From: Bacteroidales bacterium
GTDB taxonomy: Bacteria; Bacteroidota; Bacteroidia; Bacteroidales; UBA932
Direction of reading: 5' to 3'
Assembly: GCA_017471045.1 (NCBI GenBank)
Contig: JAFUWZ010000040.1
Coordinates: forward strand, 1 to 34,959
Length of the DNA: 34,959 bases
Position numbers and translations under genes: made by a program. This document shows positions 29,056 through 34,959 of the stretch, one piece after another; position 1 is the stretch's first letter, and every line of letters starts with the position of its first letter. The notes beneath the pieces are model-generated. The model did not search any database and was not told the DNA's origin. It saw only the letters and a program-made list of their open reading frames with translations.

Positions 29056-29087
29056 TTTGCCGGAAAACCCAAGAAAGCGTAACTTTG
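29056..29087 (+). promoter_or_regulatory. Promoter of the pyrimidine operon
   Basis: TTTG (29056-29059), a 20-nt spacer and TAACTTTG (29080-29087) match the Bacteroidetes consensus. Transcription would start near 29093, so the GGAG at 29097-29100 and the leader ORF at 29104 lie at the very start of the RNA. Confidence 0.65.
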
Positions 29088-29103
29088 CAAAAAATTGGAG
29101 ACG

Positions 29104-29178
29104 ATGAGACACCTTTTTCAATCTGCCTGCCTGTCCTGCGCATCGGATGAAGACGGTGTTCTGTTTTTATTTGATTGA
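29104..29178 (+). CDS. Leader peptide of the pyrimidine operon, 24 codons
   Basis: A GGAG motif three bases upstream, unusual in this GC-rich Bacteroidales window, precedes an ATG that opens a 24-codon frame (MRHLFQSACL at the start, DEDGVLFLFD at the end, then TGA). The last codons are U-rich (GTTCTGTTTTTATTTGATT), and the stop lies two bases before an intrinsic terminator stem. Promoter, short ORF, U-rich pause region, terminator and then pyr genes is the layout of the enterobacterial pyrBI leader. There, a closely following ribosome prevents termination when low UTP stalls RNA polymerase. The peptide itself probably has no other function. The role is inferred from layout. Confidence 0.62.
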   Translation: MRHLFQSACLSCASDEDGVLFLFD

Positions 29179-29180
29179 CT

Positions 29181-29207
29181 GACAGCCTCTACGGCTGTCT
29201 TTTTTTT
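29181..29207 (+). terminator. Intrinsic terminator acting as attenuator upstream of pyrC
   Basis: GACAGCC (29181-29187) and GGCTGTC (29193-29199) form a perfect 7-bp stem with a TCTAC loop, followed by eight T residues (29200-29207). Only the leader ORF lies between the promoter and this terminator, so it must act within the pyrimidine operon leader and not at the end of another gene. The pyrC ATG follows seven bases later. A ribosome at the leader stop would cover the left arm and block the stem. Confidence 0.8.
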
Positions 29208-29213
29208 GGTCCG

Positions 29214-30485
29214 ATGAGAGAAGATGTATTACTGAAAGGAGGCCGGGTCGCGACGCCGGAAGGGATCCGGAGCGCCGATCTGCTGGTCCGCCACGGACGG
29301 ATCGCCGCGGTCCGTGAGGGCCTCGAACCGGAGGGCGCGCGGACCGTCGACTGCCGCGGGCTGCTGGTCAGCGCCGGCTTCTGCGACATCCACGTCCATC
29401 TCCGGGAGCCCGGATTCTCCGCCAAGGAGACCATCCGCTCCGGGTCCGAGGCCGCGGCGGCCGGCGGATACACGACCGTCTGCGCCATGCCCAACCTCAA
29501 CCCGGTCCCGGACAGTCCGGAACACCTGGCCGTCGAGCAGGCCCTGATCGATCGGGACGCCGTGATCGAAGTGCTCCCCTATGGTGCGATCACGAAGGAG
29601 CGCCGGGGGCTCGAGCTGGTGGACATGGCCGCCCTGAAGGACCGCTGCTGCGCCTTCTCCGACGACGGGAGCGGGGTGCAGCGCGAAGGGATGATGCGGC
29701 AGGCGATGACCCTTGCCGCGCAGCAAGACGTGATCATCGCGGCCCATTGCGAAGACGAGACGCTGCTCCGCGGCGGCTACATCCACGACGGGCGTTACTG
29801 CCGCGAGCATGGCCACAAGGGCATCTGTTCCGAGAGCGAATGGGGCCAGATCGCGCGCGACCTGACCCTCTGCGCCGAGACCGGATGCCGCTATCATGTC
29901 TGCCACATTTCCACGAAAGAAAGCGTCGATCTGATCCGCCGGGCCAAGGCGGAAGGCATACGCGTGACCTGCGAAACCGCCCCGCACTACCTGGCCCTCT
30001 GCGAAGACGACCTGCAGGAAGACGGACGTTTCAAGATGAACCCCCCGCTGCGCAGCGCCGAGGACCGGCAGGCCCTGGTCGAAGGCCTCCGGGACGGTAC
30101 CATCGACGCGATCGCGACCGACCATGCGCCCCACACGGCCGAAGAGAAATCCCGCGGCCTGGCCGGCAGCGCAATGGGCATCGTCGGCCTCGAAACGGCC
30201 TTTCCCGTCCTCTATACCACGCTGGTCGAGACCGGCGTCCTCCCCCTGACCCGGCTGCTCGAGGCCCTGACAGAAGGCCCCCGGCGGGCGTTCCGCCTAC
30301 CCGGCGGGCTCCGTGTCGGGGAACGGGCCGACCTGACCGTCCTCGACCTGTCCGAGACCTTCACGGTCGATCCGGCCCGGTTCCGCAGCCAGGGCCGTGC
30401 CACTCCTTTTGCCGGCATGACCGTCCGGGGCCGCGTCCGGATGACCCTCAAGGACGGGCATATCGTCTACGAATCCAACAGTTAG
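29214..30485 (+). CDS. pyrC: Dihydroorotase, class I
   Basis: The start is ATG 29214 (MREDVLLKGGRVATPEG). An in-frame TTG 13 codons earlier would begin inside the leader and span the terminator, so it is rejected. The 423-residue amidohydrolase cyclises carbamoyl aspartate to dihydroorotate. Metal and substrate motifs are GFCDIHVHLREPGFSAKET, CAFSDDGSGV, IAAHCEDE, YHVCHISTKESVDLI and DAIATDHAPHT, which are typical of the class I (Gram-positive and Bacteroidetes) type. It is the first structural gene after the attenuator, three bases before carA. Confidence 0.95.
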   Translation: MREDVLLKGGRVATPEGIRSADLLVRHGRIAAVREGLEPEGARTVDCRGLLVSAGFCDIHVHLREPGFSAKETIRSGSEAAAAGGYTTVCAMPNLNPVPDSPEHLAVEQALIDRDAVIEVLPYGAITKERRGLELVDMAALKDRCCAFSDDGSGVQREGMMRQAMTLAAQQDVIIAAHCEDETLLRGGYIHDGRYCREHGHKGICSESEWGQIARDLTLCAETGCRYHVCHISTKESVDLIRRAKAEGIRVTCETAPHYLALCEDDLQEDGRFKMNPPLRSAEDRQALVEGLRDGTIDAIATDHAPHTAEEKSRGLAGSAMGIVGLETAFPVLYTTLVETGVLPLTRLLEALTEGPRRAFRLPGGLRVGERADLTVLDLSETFTVDPARFRSQGRATPFAGMTVRGRVRMTLKDGHIVYESNS

Positions 30486-30488
30486 TAT

Positions 30489-31571
30489 ATGAAAAGACCT
30501 GAAAAGAAACTGGTACTGGAAAACGGCCTGGAATTCTACGGCATCGGCTTCGGAGCCGACTGCCGGAAGGTTTGCGAGATCGTTTTCAACACCTCCGTCG
30601 TCGGATACCAGGAGATCCTCTCCGACCCTTCCTACGCGGAGCAGATCGTCGTGATGACCTACCCGCTGATCGGCAACTACGGCATCACCGACGAAGACTT
30701 CGAGGCCCGCACGCCGAAGATCGGCGGCCTGGTGGTCCGCGAGTGCTGCGACACCCCGAGCAACTTCCGCTATACCCAGACCCTCGAGGAGTATCTCGAA
30801 GACCACGGCATCCCGTGCCTTGGCGGGGTCGATACCCGGATGCTGACCAAGATCATCCGTGACACGGGTCGGCCGATGGGCGCCATCGTCGAAGCGGACC
30901 TGCCCAAGGAAGAGGCGCTCCGGCTGATCGCCGGCACGCCCCGCGCCCGGGACCTGGTCGCCCAGGTCAGCTGCCGGAAGCGCTGGGTCACCCGCACGCC
31001 CGGCCACCGCTTCCACGTCGTGGCTATCGACTGCGGCATCAAATACAGCATCATCCGCCACCTGTCCGAGCGCGGCTGCAACGTCACCATCGTGCCGTTC
31101 AACACGGCCGCCGACGACATCCTCGCCTTCAATCCGGACGGCATCGTCTTCTCCAACGGTCCCGCCGGCGGGCCGGAAATGCCTTCCCTCTCCGCCCTGT
31201 TCGCGCAGCTGAAAGGGCGCAAGCCCATCCTCGGGATCGGCCTGGGCCAGGAAATCATCGGCCTGCACTACGGCGCCTCCCTATCCCACATGGGCTGCGG
31301 CATCCATGGAGACCATCCCATCCGTGACCTGGAGAGCGGCCGGATCAACATCGCGGTCCTCAACCAGAGCTGGGCTTTCGGGAGCGTCGAAGGGACCGTG
31401 CTGCGCCCCACCCACGTCACCGTGCCGGAAGGCTATGTCGTCGGCTTCGAGCAGGCCGAAGACCGGATCTTCGGCGTCCAGTTCCACCTCGAGTCCGCCC
31501 CCGGACCGCAGGACAACGTCTATCTTTTCGACCGTTTCATCCAAATGATGGAGGAAGAGCCCCATGCCTAG
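30489..31571 (+). CDS. carA: Carbamoyl-phosphate synthase small subunit lacking the catalytic cysteine
   Basis: This 360-residue protein has the CarA N-terminal domain (FYGIGFGADCRKVCEIVFNTS, then GYQEILSDPSYAEQIV) and a class-I glutaminase-like domain. In active CarA the nucleophile lies in GICLGHQ. Here the motif is GIGLGQE, with Gly251 at the Cys position (codon GGC where Cys would be TGC). Nearby conserved pieces are changed too: GHHGGNHPV has become GIHGDHPI (271-278) and QNHGFAV has become LNQSWAF (291-297). His333 and Glu335 of the triad remain in FHLESAPGP. It probably still binds CarB but cannot hydrolyse glutamine, as in ammonia-dependent mammalian CPS1. Its stop overlaps carB by eight bases. 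Confidence 0.94.
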   Translation: MKRPEKKLVLENGLEFYGIGFGADCRKVCEIVFNTSVVGYQEILSDPSYAEQIVVMTYPLIGNYGITDEDFEARTPKIGGLVVRECCDTPSNFRYTQTLEEYLEDHGIPCLGGVDTRMLTKIIRDTGRPMGAIVEADLPKEEALRLIAGTPRARDLVAQVSCRKRWVTRTPGHRFHVVAIDCGIKYSIIRHLSERGCNVTIVPFNTAADDILAFNPDGIVFSNGPAGGPEMPSLSALFAQLKGRKPILGIGLGQEIIGLHYGASLSHMGCGIHGDHPIRDLESGRINIAVLNQSWAFGSVEGTVLRPTHVTVPEGYVVGFEQAEDRIFGVQFHLESAPGPQDNVYLFDRFIQMMEEEPHA

Positions 31572-34500
31572 AAGAACCGATATCAAGAAAGTGATGGTCA
31601 TCGGCTCCGGCCCGATCGTCATCGGCCAGGCCGCCGAATTCGACTACGCCGACACCCAGGCCTGCCTTGCGCTCAAGGAGGAAGGCTACGAAGTGATCCT
31701 GGTCAACTCCAACCCGGCCACCATCATGACCGACACGCACATCGCGGACAAGGTCTACATGGAGCCCCTCAAACTCGAATACATCGCCAAGATCATCCGT
31801 TACGAGCGGCCCGACGCCCTCGTGCCGGGCCTCGGCGGGCAGACCGGCCTCAACCTCGCCGTCCAGCTGGCCCGCAAAGGCGTCCTCGAGGAGTGCGGCG
31901 TCGAGATCCTCGGCACCTCCTTCCACGGCATCGAGAAGGCCGAAGACCGCGAACTCTTCAAGGAGCTCTGCATGGGGATCGGCGAGCCCGTCATCCCTTC
32001 GGAAATCTGCTACGACGTCGAGAACGGCGCGCGCATCGCCGCCGAGATCGGCTACCCCGTCATCCTGCGGCCGGCCTTCACGCTCGGCGGTACGGGCGGC
32101 GGTTTCGCCGACAACGAGGAGCAGCTCCGCGACCTGATGCGGAACGCCCTCGCCCTCTCCCCCGTCCACCAGGTACTCGTCGAGAAGAGCATCAAGGGCT
32201 ACAAGGAGATCGAGTTCGAAGTGATGCGCGACCACAACGACACCGCCATCGCCATCTGTTCGATGGAAAACATCGATCCGGTCGGCGTCCACACGGGCGA
32301 CTCGATGGTCGTCGCACCCGCCCAGACCCTGACGGACAAGGAATACCAGATGCTGCGCGACAGCGCTCTCAAGCTGATCCGGGCCCTGGAGATCGAAGGC
32401 GGCTGCAACGTCCAGTTCGCCCTCGATCCCCTTTCTTTCAAGTATTATATCATCGAGGTCAACCCGCGCGTATCGCGCTCCTCGGCCCTGGCGTCCAAGG
32501 CCAGCGGTTTCCCGATCGCCCGCGTCACCGCCAAGATCGCGGTCGGCCTGACCCTCGACGAGATCCAGATCGCCGGGGCGCCGGCCTGCTGCGAGCCGGC
32601 CATCGACTACGTCGTCACGAAGGTCGCCCGCTTCCCCTTCGACAAATTCAGCGAAGCGTCCAACGAGCTCGGTACGCAGATGAAGGCGACGGGCGAAGTG
32701 ATGAGCATCGGCCGCACCCTCGAGGAGAGCATCCTCAAGGCGATGCGCTCCCTCGAAGCGGGCTGCTGCCACATCCACAAGAAGAGATTCGACGACTGGA
32801 CGCAGGAGGCCCTGCTCGACTACATCAGCACCCCGACTGACGACCGCATCCACGCCATCGCCCAGCTGCTGCGCCTGAGGATCGACCTGACGCGCATCTA
32901 CGACCGCACCAAGATCGACCTCCTCTTCCTCGAGAAAATCTACAACATCGTCCGGATGGAGCGCCGCGTCAAGGCCGCGCCGCAGGATGAAGCCGTCCTG
33001 CGGGAAGCCAAGCGCATGGGCTTCGGCGACCGCTTCATCGCGCAGCTCTGGGGCTGCAGCGAGGAGGATGTCATCCGCTTCCGCCGCGACAAAGGCATCC
33101 GGCCGGTCTACAAGATGATCGACTCCTGCTCCGCCGAGCACGACACCTATGTGCCCTATTTCTACTCGACCTACGAGCAGGAAAACGAATCCGTCCGCAG
33201 CCATCGCCGCAAGATCCTGGTGCTCGGATCCGGCCCGATCCGCATCGGACAGGGCGTGGAGTTCGACTACTCCACCGTCCACGCGATCTGGGCCATCCGC
33301 GAGGCCGGCTACGAAGCGATCATCATCAACAACAATCCCGAGACCGTCTCGACCGACTACACCATTTCCGACAAGCTCTATTTCGAGCCCCTCACGCCCG
33401 AGGACGTCATGAACGTGATCGACCTCGAGCAGCCGGAAGGCGTGATCGTGACCCTCGGCGGCCAGACGGCCATCAACCTGGCGGCCCCGCTGGAGCAGTT
33501 CGGCGTCCCGCTGATCGGCACCGGCCTGCAGGCCATCGACAACGCCGAAGACCGTAAACGCTTCGAGCAGATCCTGCGCCGGACCGGCATCCCGCAGCCG
33601 CGGGCCAAGGCCGTCACCAACGTCGAGGACGGCGTGCGGGCGGCCGAGGAGATCGGCTATCCCGTCCTCGTGCGGCCCAGTTTCGTGCTCGGCGGCCGCG
33701 CGATGATGATCGTCGGCAACGAGGAGACCCTGCGCCACTACCTCCACAACGCCGTGGAGATCAACGAGAACTCCCCGGTCCTCGTGGACAAGTACATCAT
33801 GGGCAAGGAGACGGAGGTCGATGCCATCTGCGACGGGGAGGACGTATTCATTCCTGCCATCATGGAGCACGTCGAGCGCACCGGCATCCACTCCGGCGAC
33901 AGCATCAGCGTCTATCCTTCCTTCAGCCTCAGCGACAAGGTCAAGCAGGAGATCATCCGCGACACCGTCCAGCTGGGCCGCGCCATCGGCATCAAGGGCC
34001 TGTACAACATCCAGTTCATCGTGGACGAGCACGAGGACGTCTATGTGATCGAGGTCAATCCGCGCTCCTCGCGCACCGTGCCCTTCATCTCCAAGTCCAC
34101 CGGCATCCCGATGGCCAAGATCGCCACACGCGTGATGCTCGGACACACGCTCAAGGAGCAGGGCATCACCGAGGTCTGTTTCCCGGAGCGCAAGCGCCAC
34201 TTCGTCAAGACGCCGGCTTTCTCCTTCGGCAAAATCAAGGGGATCGACACCTACCTCTCGCCCGAGATGAAATCCACCGGCGAGGCCATCGGCTACGACG
34301 ACAGCCTCAACCGCGCACTATATAAGTCGTTGCAGGCCTCGGGCATGACGATCCGCAGCTACGGCACCGTCTTCGTCACCCTCGCCGACCGCTACAAGGC
34401 CGAGGCCCTGCCCCTGATCTGTCGTTTCTACAACCTCGGCTTCAACATCGAGGCGACGCGCGGCACGGCGGCCTTCCTCCGGGAGCACGGGATCAAGACC

Positions 34501-34752
34501 CGCACCCTGCACAAGATCAGCGAGGGCAGCGACGACATACCGAACGCCCTGCGCAAGGGTCACGTCAGCTACGTGATCAACAAGATCGACCTCAATCAGA
34601 AGAGCAGCCATCTGGACGGCTACGAAATCCGTCGCACGGCCGTGGAGAACAATGTCACGATCTTCACCGCCCTGGAGACCGTCGGCGTGCTGCTGGACGT
34701 CCTGGAGGAAATCACCCTCGGCATCTCGACCATCGACGAAGAGTACAAATAG
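31564..34752 (+). CDS. carB: Carbamoyl-phosphate synthase large subunit
   Basis: This 1062-residue cytoplasmic enzyme makes carbamoyl phosphate from bicarbonate, ammonia and two ATP, feeding pyrimidine and arginine synthesis. It shows the expected internal duplication: VMVIGSGPIVIGQAAEFDYA near the N-terminus and ILVLGSGPIRIGQGVEFDYS near residue 552. Each half has an ATP-grasp domain, with FTLGGTGGGFADNEEQL in the first and FVLGGRAMMIVGNEE in the second. The C-terminal allosteric domain contains GFNIEATRGTAAFLREHGIK. Length and motifs are normal, so synthetase activity should be intact. Given the altered CarA, ammonia would have to enter from solution. Confidence 0.97.
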   Translation: MPRRTDIKKVMVIGSGPIVIGQAAEFDYADTQACLALKEEGYEVILVNSNPATIMTDTHIADKVYMEPLKLEYIAKIIRYERPDALVPGLGGQTGLNLAVQLARKGVLEECGVEILGTSFHGIEKAEDRELFKELCMGIGEPVIPSEICYDVENGARIAAEIGYPVILRPAFTLGGTGGGFADNEEQLRDLMRNALALSPVHQVLVEKSIKGYKEIEFEVMRDHNDTAIAICSMENIDPVGVHTGDSMVVAPAQTLTDKEYQMLRDSALKLIRALEIEGGCNVQFALDPLSFKYYIIEVNPRVSRSSALASKASGFPIARVTAKIAVGLTLDEIQIAGAPACCEPAIDYVVTKVARFPFDKFSEASNELGTQMKATGEVMSIGRTLEESILKAMRSLEAGCCHIHKKRFDDWTQEALLDYISTPTDDRIHAIAQLLRLRIDLTRIYDRTKIDLLFLEKIYNIVRMERRVKAAPQDEAVLREAKRMGFGDRFIAQLWGCSEEDVIRFRRDKGIRPVYKMIDSCSAEHDTYVPYFYSTYEQENESVRSHRRKILVLGSGPIRIGQGVEFDYSTVHAIWAIREAGYEAIIINNNPETVSTDYTISDKLYFEPLTPEDVMNVIDLEQPEGVIVTLGGQTAINLAAPLEQFGVPLIGTGLQAIDNAEDRKRFEQILRRTGIPQPRAKAVTNVEDGVRAAEEIGYPVLVRPSFVLGGRAMMIVGNEETLRHYLHNAVEINENSPVLVDKYIMGKETEVDAICDGEDVFIPAIMEHVERTGIHSGDSISVYPSFSLSDKVKQEIIRDTVQLGRAIGIKGLYNIQFIVDEHEDVYVIEVNPRSSRTVPFISKSTGIPMAKIATRVMLGHTLKEQGITEVCFPERKRHFVKTPAFSFGKIKGIDTYLSPEMKSTGEAIGYDDSLNRALYKSLQASGMTIRSYGTVFVTLADRYKAEALPLICRFYNLGFNIEATRGTAAFLREHGIKTRTLHKISEGSDDIPNALRKGHVSYVINKIDLNQKSSHLDGYEIRRTAVENNVTIFTALETVGVLLDVLEEITLGISTIDEEYK

Positions 34753-34959
34753 ATGGACAGAAAGTTTTATACTATCGCCGAAAACGCGCCGATCGCCCCC
34801 AAGACCTATCGCCTGGTCCTGGAGGGCGAGAGCGCCGCGGACGGCGAATTCGTGGGCCTCGACGTCCCGGGCTTCTTCCTGCGCCGGCCCTTGTCGGTCT
34901 GCGCGCGCAGCGACAAGGGGATCACCCGGATATACAAGGTAGTGGGGGCCGGCCCCGAA
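34753..34959 (+). CDS. pyrK: Dihydroorotate dehydrogenase electron-transfer subunit, N-terminal part
   Basis: The ATG directly follows the carB stop with no gap, and the frame runs off the window after 69 codons. The start MDRKFYTIAENAPIAPKTYR and the FAD-binding FFLRRPLSVCARSD match the ferredoxin-reductase-like PyrK subunit. PyrK passes electrons from dihydroorotate dehydrogenase PyrD to NAD. The usual C-terminal 2Fe-2S cysteines lie beyond the window. The position after pyrC-carA-carB supports the call and predicts pyrD next. Confidence 0.88.
   Translation, partial: MDRKFYTIAENAPIAPKTYRLVLEGESAADGEFVGLDVPGFFLRRPLSVCARSDKGITRIYKVVGAGPE

Follow-up and report, generated by a model that had tools for sequence, protein, structure and literature searches.

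The window, by which we mean the whole 34,959-nt stretch of Bacteroidales DNA that was analysed, ends in a pyrimidine locus in which pyrC, carA, carB and a pyrK-like open reading frame (ORF) follow one another on the plus strand behind a short leader with its own promoter, ORF and terminator (Table 1). The original prediction had spoken of a pyrC-carAB-pyrK operon, and the first three genes indeed exceed the cut-offs of their family models, while pyrK, cut by the end of the window, is suggested by weak partial matches below cut-off. Upstream, and divergent from the pyr operon, the minus strand carries purE, a purL-like ORF (identified by eye) and a purC-like ORF between 24001 and 28929, the last scoring 178.1 bits, just under its family cut-off of 189.9. 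The pyrB gene of the source genome stands at the start of another contig, preceded by pyrF- and pyrE-like ORFs (by eye). Because in the relative L057 pyrC is followed by carA-, carB-, pyrK- and pyrD-like ORFs (by eye), it is likely that these genes form one long UMP operon.

Table 1. Features of the leader region and pyr genes in the window
Feature	Positions	Strand	Basis
-33 element TTTG	29056-29059	+	sequence match; consensus quoted in the available part of PMC7366714
-7 element TAACTTTG (TAnnTTTG)	29080-29087	+	sequence match; consensus quoted in the available part of PMC7366714
Closing stem, 5' arm (predicted), spanning the leader start codon	29096-29113	+	fold prediction
GGAG	29097-29100	+	sequence inspection
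Leader ORF, 24 codons and TGA, encoding MRHLFQSACLSCASDEDGVLFLFD	29104-29178	+	open frame; relatives share layout
Closing stem, 3' arm (predicted), running into the U tract	29155-29169	+	fold prediction
U tract TTTTTATTT, presumed UTP-dependent pause region	29164-29172	+	sequence; U preference in relatives
Leader stop TGA	29176-29178	+	two bases before terminator stem
Terminator stem-loop, perfect 7 bp	29181-29199	+	sequence and terminator scan
Terminator T8 tract	29200-29207	+	sequence inspection
pyrC, dihydroorotase	29214-30485	+	TIGR00857, 390.8 bits (cut-off 279.05)
carA	30489-31571	+	TIGR01368, 343.5 bits (cut-off 307.35)
carB	31564-34752	+	TIGR01369, 1449.3 bits (cut-off 1027)
pyrK-like ORF, cut by window end	34753-34959	+	partial pyrK-model matches, best 27.7 bits, below cut-off

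Anatomy of the leader

Inspection of the plus strand, base by base, verified the layout of the leader region: the 24-codon ORF, its stop two bases before a perfect 7-bp stem and the run of eight T residues are all as originally read, and only the distance from this run to the pyrC start codon had to be corrected, from seven bases to six. A promoter is also present, of the Bacteroides -33/-7 form according to the consensus quoted in the available part of PMC7366714, with a spacer of 20 nt between TTTG and TAACTTTG; a sigma-70 scan found none. The start of the transcript is estimated to lie near 29091. The terminator stem begins 77 nt from the leader start, and the 30 nt before it hold 15 T residues in a window of 60% GC, with pyrC at 68% GC.

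The GGAG to which attention had been drawn is found before the ORF, but no role for it is supported, GGAG or GAGG being present in 4 of 75 leaders and any of five purine 4-mers in 15. Bacteroidetes messages are described in the available part of PMC7366714 as having no classical Shine-Dalgarno sites.

Conservation among relatives

The type of pyrC found in the window is not general in the order Bacteroidales: it was detected in three of 295 sampled genomes of the order at an E value of 1e-80. In the window's own family 35 genomes of 299 have it (the source genome being included in both counts), and in a second family 174 of 250. Eighty upstream stretches were taken, namely every one of the 34 other matches in the window's family and 46 from the second family, hand-picked among the matches listed, of 174, with eight further listed matches left out. 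Together with 12 additional regions, the window among them, these gave 92 regions. A terminator lies upstream of pyrC in 76 of them, and in 75 of these 76 an ATG-initiated ORF reaches the terminator, a count in which the choice of ORF was permissive and which has no null of its own. The 16 regions in which no terminator was found at pyrC all belong to the window's family (16 of 46 there).

A further comparison used sets of 86 and 87 loci, partly overlapping the 92 regions, in which both a promoter and a terminator were required. Left out were the loci titled as Clostridia or Clostridia-like, L088, L089, L092 and L105, loci with identical 80 nt plus stem and, for the set of 86, also L047, which has no strict TAnnTTTG. 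When the promoter was picked without reference to the ORF, the frame opened by the first ATG had its stop between -15 and +16 of the stem in 70 of the 86 loci, where dinucleotide shuffles would give 11.1 (sd 3.0). By the same null, any ORF ending between -9 and +16 is present in 76 loci (13.0 expected), and 83 loci have an ORF that extends to the stem (30.4 expected). The excess is seen also among the 75 less similar loci, of which 62 have a first-ATG ORF with its stop at the stem while 9.4 would be expected, and when the promoter was chosen knowing the ORF (79 of 87 loci against 15.6). Measured from the start of the stem, the stop lies at -9 to +15 in 72 of 75 leaders and at +45 to +48 in the other three. 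The species behind all these leader and terminator counts are related, so that the trials are not independent.

These numbers bear directly on the alternative that a chance ORF stands before an ordinary terminator or that the terminator belongs to an upstream transcript. Short ORFs are frequent, and the shuffles would lead one to expect some 11 to 13 among 86 loci, but 70 to 76 were seen; purE, being divergent, does not need this terminator. We regard this explanation as extremely unlikely. The comparison of relatives supports the conservation of ORF and terminator (70 of 86 loci, 75 of 76 regions) and of the U-rich end, described below.

Distribution of the leader

A composite scan of both strands, covering 1.82 million strand-bases of the window and of pyrC neighbourhoods up to 13 kb, and not whole genomes, returned 27 matches. 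Of these, 25 precede pyrC, another precedes pyrK (in L032) and the last lies within pyrC itself (in L062), which is due to chance. The pyrC loci of the other type (L013-L030) gave no match. At two loci, L003 and L032, promoter, leader and terminator precede a pyrK-like gene and no terminator was found before pyrC; the gene was called by eye in L003 and, in L032, from pyrK models scoring at most 198.7 bits, below their cut-offs. Compared with the pyrC leader of L002, the leader of L003 is 58% identical (read by eye) and that of L032 38%. Judged from these arrangements, the predicted leader-terminator unit follows the operon.

The pyrB genes of other Bacteroidales (30 loci of 59 places in 58 genomes) gave three leader-like matches, one of them, L194, doubtful. 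In L205 (minus strand, stem near 2454) the ORF lies beside the terminator and has a U-rich end; in L200 (plus strand, stem near 1410) an ORF of 11 codons lies beside the terminator with no U tract. These two pyrB leaders come from other Bacteroidales families and possibly have separate origins. Genes of the NCS2 permease family were matched in 11 of 14 genomes, in six over cut-off, and no such leader was detected before them (15 loci scanned, 12 upstream regions inspected), so that no wider UTP regulon is seen.

The U-rich end of the leader

U makes up 0.54 and 0.49 of the pair of 10-nt bins that precede the stem, and A 0.25 and 0.19 (87 loci); a run of at least four T occurs in the last 30 nt of 51 of 75 leaders as against 16 of 75 in the stretch 45-75 nt upstream of the stem. 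The preference reaches synonymous positions. Among codons able to end in T, the third base is T in 306 of 526 (58%) within the last eight leader codons, in 477 of 1267 (38%) in the earlier leader and in 581 of 2597 (22%) at the start of pyrC, where the sample consists of approximately the first 50 codons of the first open frame from an approximate start. Phenylalanine is written TTT in 50 of 60 cases in the leader tail, 34 of 77 in the earlier leader and 16 of 52 at the start of pyrC. The encoded ends, in turn, vary by clade (VLFLFD, VTTVYFC, GIIVLLG, ITVFN). That the preference for U and for TTT is kept while the residues vary speaks for selection acting at the level of the transcript, which a pause dependent on UTP would require, and not for stalling at specific codons.

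Constraint on the peptide itself is weak. In 12 disjoint pairs of leaders, 31 of the 104 codons with a single change are synonymous (0.30, against 0.23 by chance), and over all 24 overlapping pairs the figure is 103 of 248. A likeness of the peptide start (MRHLF) to that of the Escherichia coli pyrBI leader, proposed originally, is not supported: RH occurs within the first six residues in one leader of 75, that of the window itself, and beyond RH no likeness between the window peptide and E. coli pyrL is seen in an informal comparison.

Attenuators of the trp, his and leu operons likewise combine a leader-peptide ORF with an intrinsic terminator, and one could suppose that a ribosome stalled at Phe, Leu or Cys codons favours an antiterminator, as in the trp and phe type. 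The window leader does end in Leu-Phe-Leu-Phe-Asp, and leader tails in general are rich in V, F, L and I. Against this, the end residues differ from clade to clade while U stays high, so that no regulatory codons are common to the clades, and the genes controlled would be those of pyrimidine synthesis. According to the available part of PMC4824070, stop and terminator are separated by more than 20 bp in amino-acid attenuators, whereas here the stop adjoins the stem (within 15 nt of its start in 72 of 75 leaders). Nor is there a signal of an antiterminator: the longest complement to the 5' arm of the terminator averages 4.00 against 3.93 in shuffles (75 loci), and two loci of 75 have such a complement at p 0.05 or less, with 3.8 expected. 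Amino-acid attenuation is a very improbable reading of these leaders.

The U tract is absent from eight of 75 leaders in which ORF and terminator are kept, including leaders 10-12 codons long and the majority of one clade with the stop inside the hairpin; by eye it is absent from a further four, L045, L065, L073 and L083. Contact between ORF and terminator has therefore been retained in more leaders than the U tract has. The last four loci carry the titles Muribaculum, Muribaculaceae or Porphyromonadaceae and have 17-codon leaders with similar ends and the stop at the stem. The loci L115-L117, L121, L122, L135 and L137 have short leaders in which the U tract is slight or missing; most of them end in ETAR or ETTR and have the stop inside the terminator hairpin, that of L115 being 8 nt before the stem.

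Such leaders are what would be expected if the device sensed translation status or growth, that is, the speed of the ribosome relative to that of the polymerase, rather than UTP, the U tract being no more than a fixed pause during which coupling can be established. On the other side stand the preference for U at synonymous sites of the leader end and the position of the composite before pyr genes in 26 of the 27 matches in the scanned neighbourhoods, and we consider sensing of this kind unlikely, with about one chance in its favour to several against.

Search for PyrR and RNA elements

The PyrR-dependent pyr attenuators of Bacillota also place a terminator before the pyr operon, as here. A protein- or metabolite-binding leader RNA, whether PyrR-like or a riboswitch, with the ORF only incidental to it, could find some encouragement in the folding of the leaders, which is better than that of shuffles (mean z -1.25, 75 leaders), and in weak, sub-cut-off matches to the PyrR model in eight of 14 genomes. 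No genome of the 14, the source genome included, has a match over the cut-off of the one PyrR model used, in agreement with the view that the system works without PyrR; the match of the source genome (C24:7091-7501, inside the window) scores 19.9 bits against a cut-off of 138, and the weak matches are probably other phosphoribosyltransferases. Rfam gave no match on the whole window, on the window leader even at E 5, or on 20 relatives at gathering score. In both respects the leaders differ from the PyrR-dependent attenuators of Bacillota, and the coincidence of ORF and stem, far above chance, also speaks against an incidental ORF, which leaves a binding RNA highly unlikely.

Upstream regions of several Clostridia loci were considered as candidate PyrR sites; Rfam found none at gathering score in eight of them, and no such sites are claimed.

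Pairing between leader start and leader end

The start of the leader, taken as 16 nt either side of its ATG, was compared with the leader end. In the 63 leaders long enough for the analysis, the computed expected number of start-to-end pairs is 11.5 as against 7.8 in segment-wise shuffles, and 15 of them reach p 0.05 or less, with 3.2 expected. Among 45 less similar leaders, the duplex of start and end has a z of -1.16 (standard error 0.22), and p is 0.05 or less in 14 of the 45, where 2.2 would be expected. As controls, the untranscribed upstream sequence paired with the end gives z 0.09 (45 leaders) and the start paired with the middle z +0.47 (27 leaders). Some results count against start-to-end pairing. 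Besides clade B and the rank of the window among swapped partners (below), the control of middle with end is also below zero (z -0.40, 27 leaders), and the longest Watson-Crick run between start and end, at 5.89, scarcely exceeds the 5.40 of shuffles.

Swapping ends among relatives, within clades grouped by hand, weakens the pairing in clade A (p 0.00005), C (0.002) and D (0.011), and not significantly in clade B (p 0.21). In clade A the two arms change together; in L178, for example, ACCTGAATCC stands opposite GGATTTAGGT, and in L169 GCCCCG stands opposite CGGGGC. In the window the predicted closing stem folds with z -1.99, nine of 200 shuffles folding as well, and start-to-end pairing has p 0.03 against shuffles; against swapped partners from other genomes the duplex ranks only 0.41, in a test confounded by GC content whose own control put 2 of 12 in the best 5%.

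The E. coli pyrL leader (L223, 2900-3034, E. coli K-12), a single sequence, shows start-to-end complementarity with z -3.67. Its presumed Shine-Dalgarno sequence, GGGAGGA, is complementary to its own U/C pause tract, also in the predicted fold; the likeness between the two systems thus extends to a ribosome-binding region complementary to such a tract. By computed pairing, then, many lineages have a leader whose start and U-rich end are complementary, a new feature of which no description was found in the literature searched.

A probable pyrBI-like attenuator in Bacteroidota

The closest known parallel is the pyrBI operon of E. coli with its leader pyrL, the mechanism of which is described in the available part of PMC10135430. 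Both systems have a short leader ORF, a U-rich stretch 5' of an intrinsic terminator, an ORF that reaches this terminator and a first pyr gene close behind, and neither the order of parts nor the missing antiterminator signal departs from the analogy originally drawn. The differences are these: the window leader has 24 codons and pyrL 44; the window stop lies 2 nt before the stem and that of pyrL 47 nt after its start, the three relatives with stops at +45 to +48 being in this measure like pyrL; the window leader precedes pyrC-carAB and not pyrBI; and its promoter is of Bacteroides type, with leaders that have no conserved Shine-Dalgarno sequence. In its way of working, this pyrC leader would be a variant of pyrBI-type attenuation.

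The conserved layout and the nucleotide-level preference for U are probably those of a translation-coupled transcription attenuator, pyrBI-like, that adjusts the UMP operon to UTP, for which we infer leader translation, ribosome occlusion and UTP-dependent pausing. Transcription would start just upstream of the short leader ORF. With ample UTP, the polymerase would cross the U-rich end without delay and with no ribosome close behind, the hairpin and T8 would form, and transcription would stop before pyrC. When UTP is low, the polymerase would pause in the U tract and the leader ribosome would catch up and halt when it reached the stop codon. With two bases between this codon and the stem, the ribosome would cover the 5' arm, so that the hairpin would be blocked and the operon transcribed. 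The available part of PMC4824070 reports that terminators of E. coli are repressed by a stop codon lying a few bases away, and that suppression is less frequent for terminators located in the initial 100 bp of a coding region, coupling being not yet set up there; since the window stem lies so near the leader start, the model leans on the pause. The pyrL pause that was studied is not stabilised by NusA (PMC9291695, available part).

After passage of a polymerase without a ribosome, the leader start may pair with the U-rich end and shut out a late ribosome, so that the pairing could seal the leader against late ribosomes. A further step would be a race gate, in which the entry site is open only for the time that the polymerase needs to get from the start codon as far as the U tract, and in which UTP, through its effect on travel and pause time, decides whether a ribosome loads; this we put forward tentatively, judging it rather doubtful.

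No pyr leader attenuator in Bacteroidota and no study of coupling with pyr-gene attenuation there was found in the literature searched, the main reviews lying outside that search, which agrees with the original expectation that none had been described in the phylum. The available part of PMC7366714 reports small ORFs reminiscent of attenuation leader peptides in 5' untranslated regions of Bacteroides thetaiotaomicron, and the word pyrimidine is absent from its main text.

The 75 leaders show which parts have been kept, namely the position of the stop next to the stem, the synonymous choice of U and, by prediction, the start-to-end pairing, and the clades without a U tract are candidates for another signal. 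If the attenuator works as proposed, UTP sensing by the coupling of polymerase and ribosome would extend from the enterobacteria to Bacteroidota, and the leader would offer a natural reporter for coupling in this phylum; if the pairing also has the role suggested, it would be a component common to UTP attenuation in two phyla that had each arrived at it independently.
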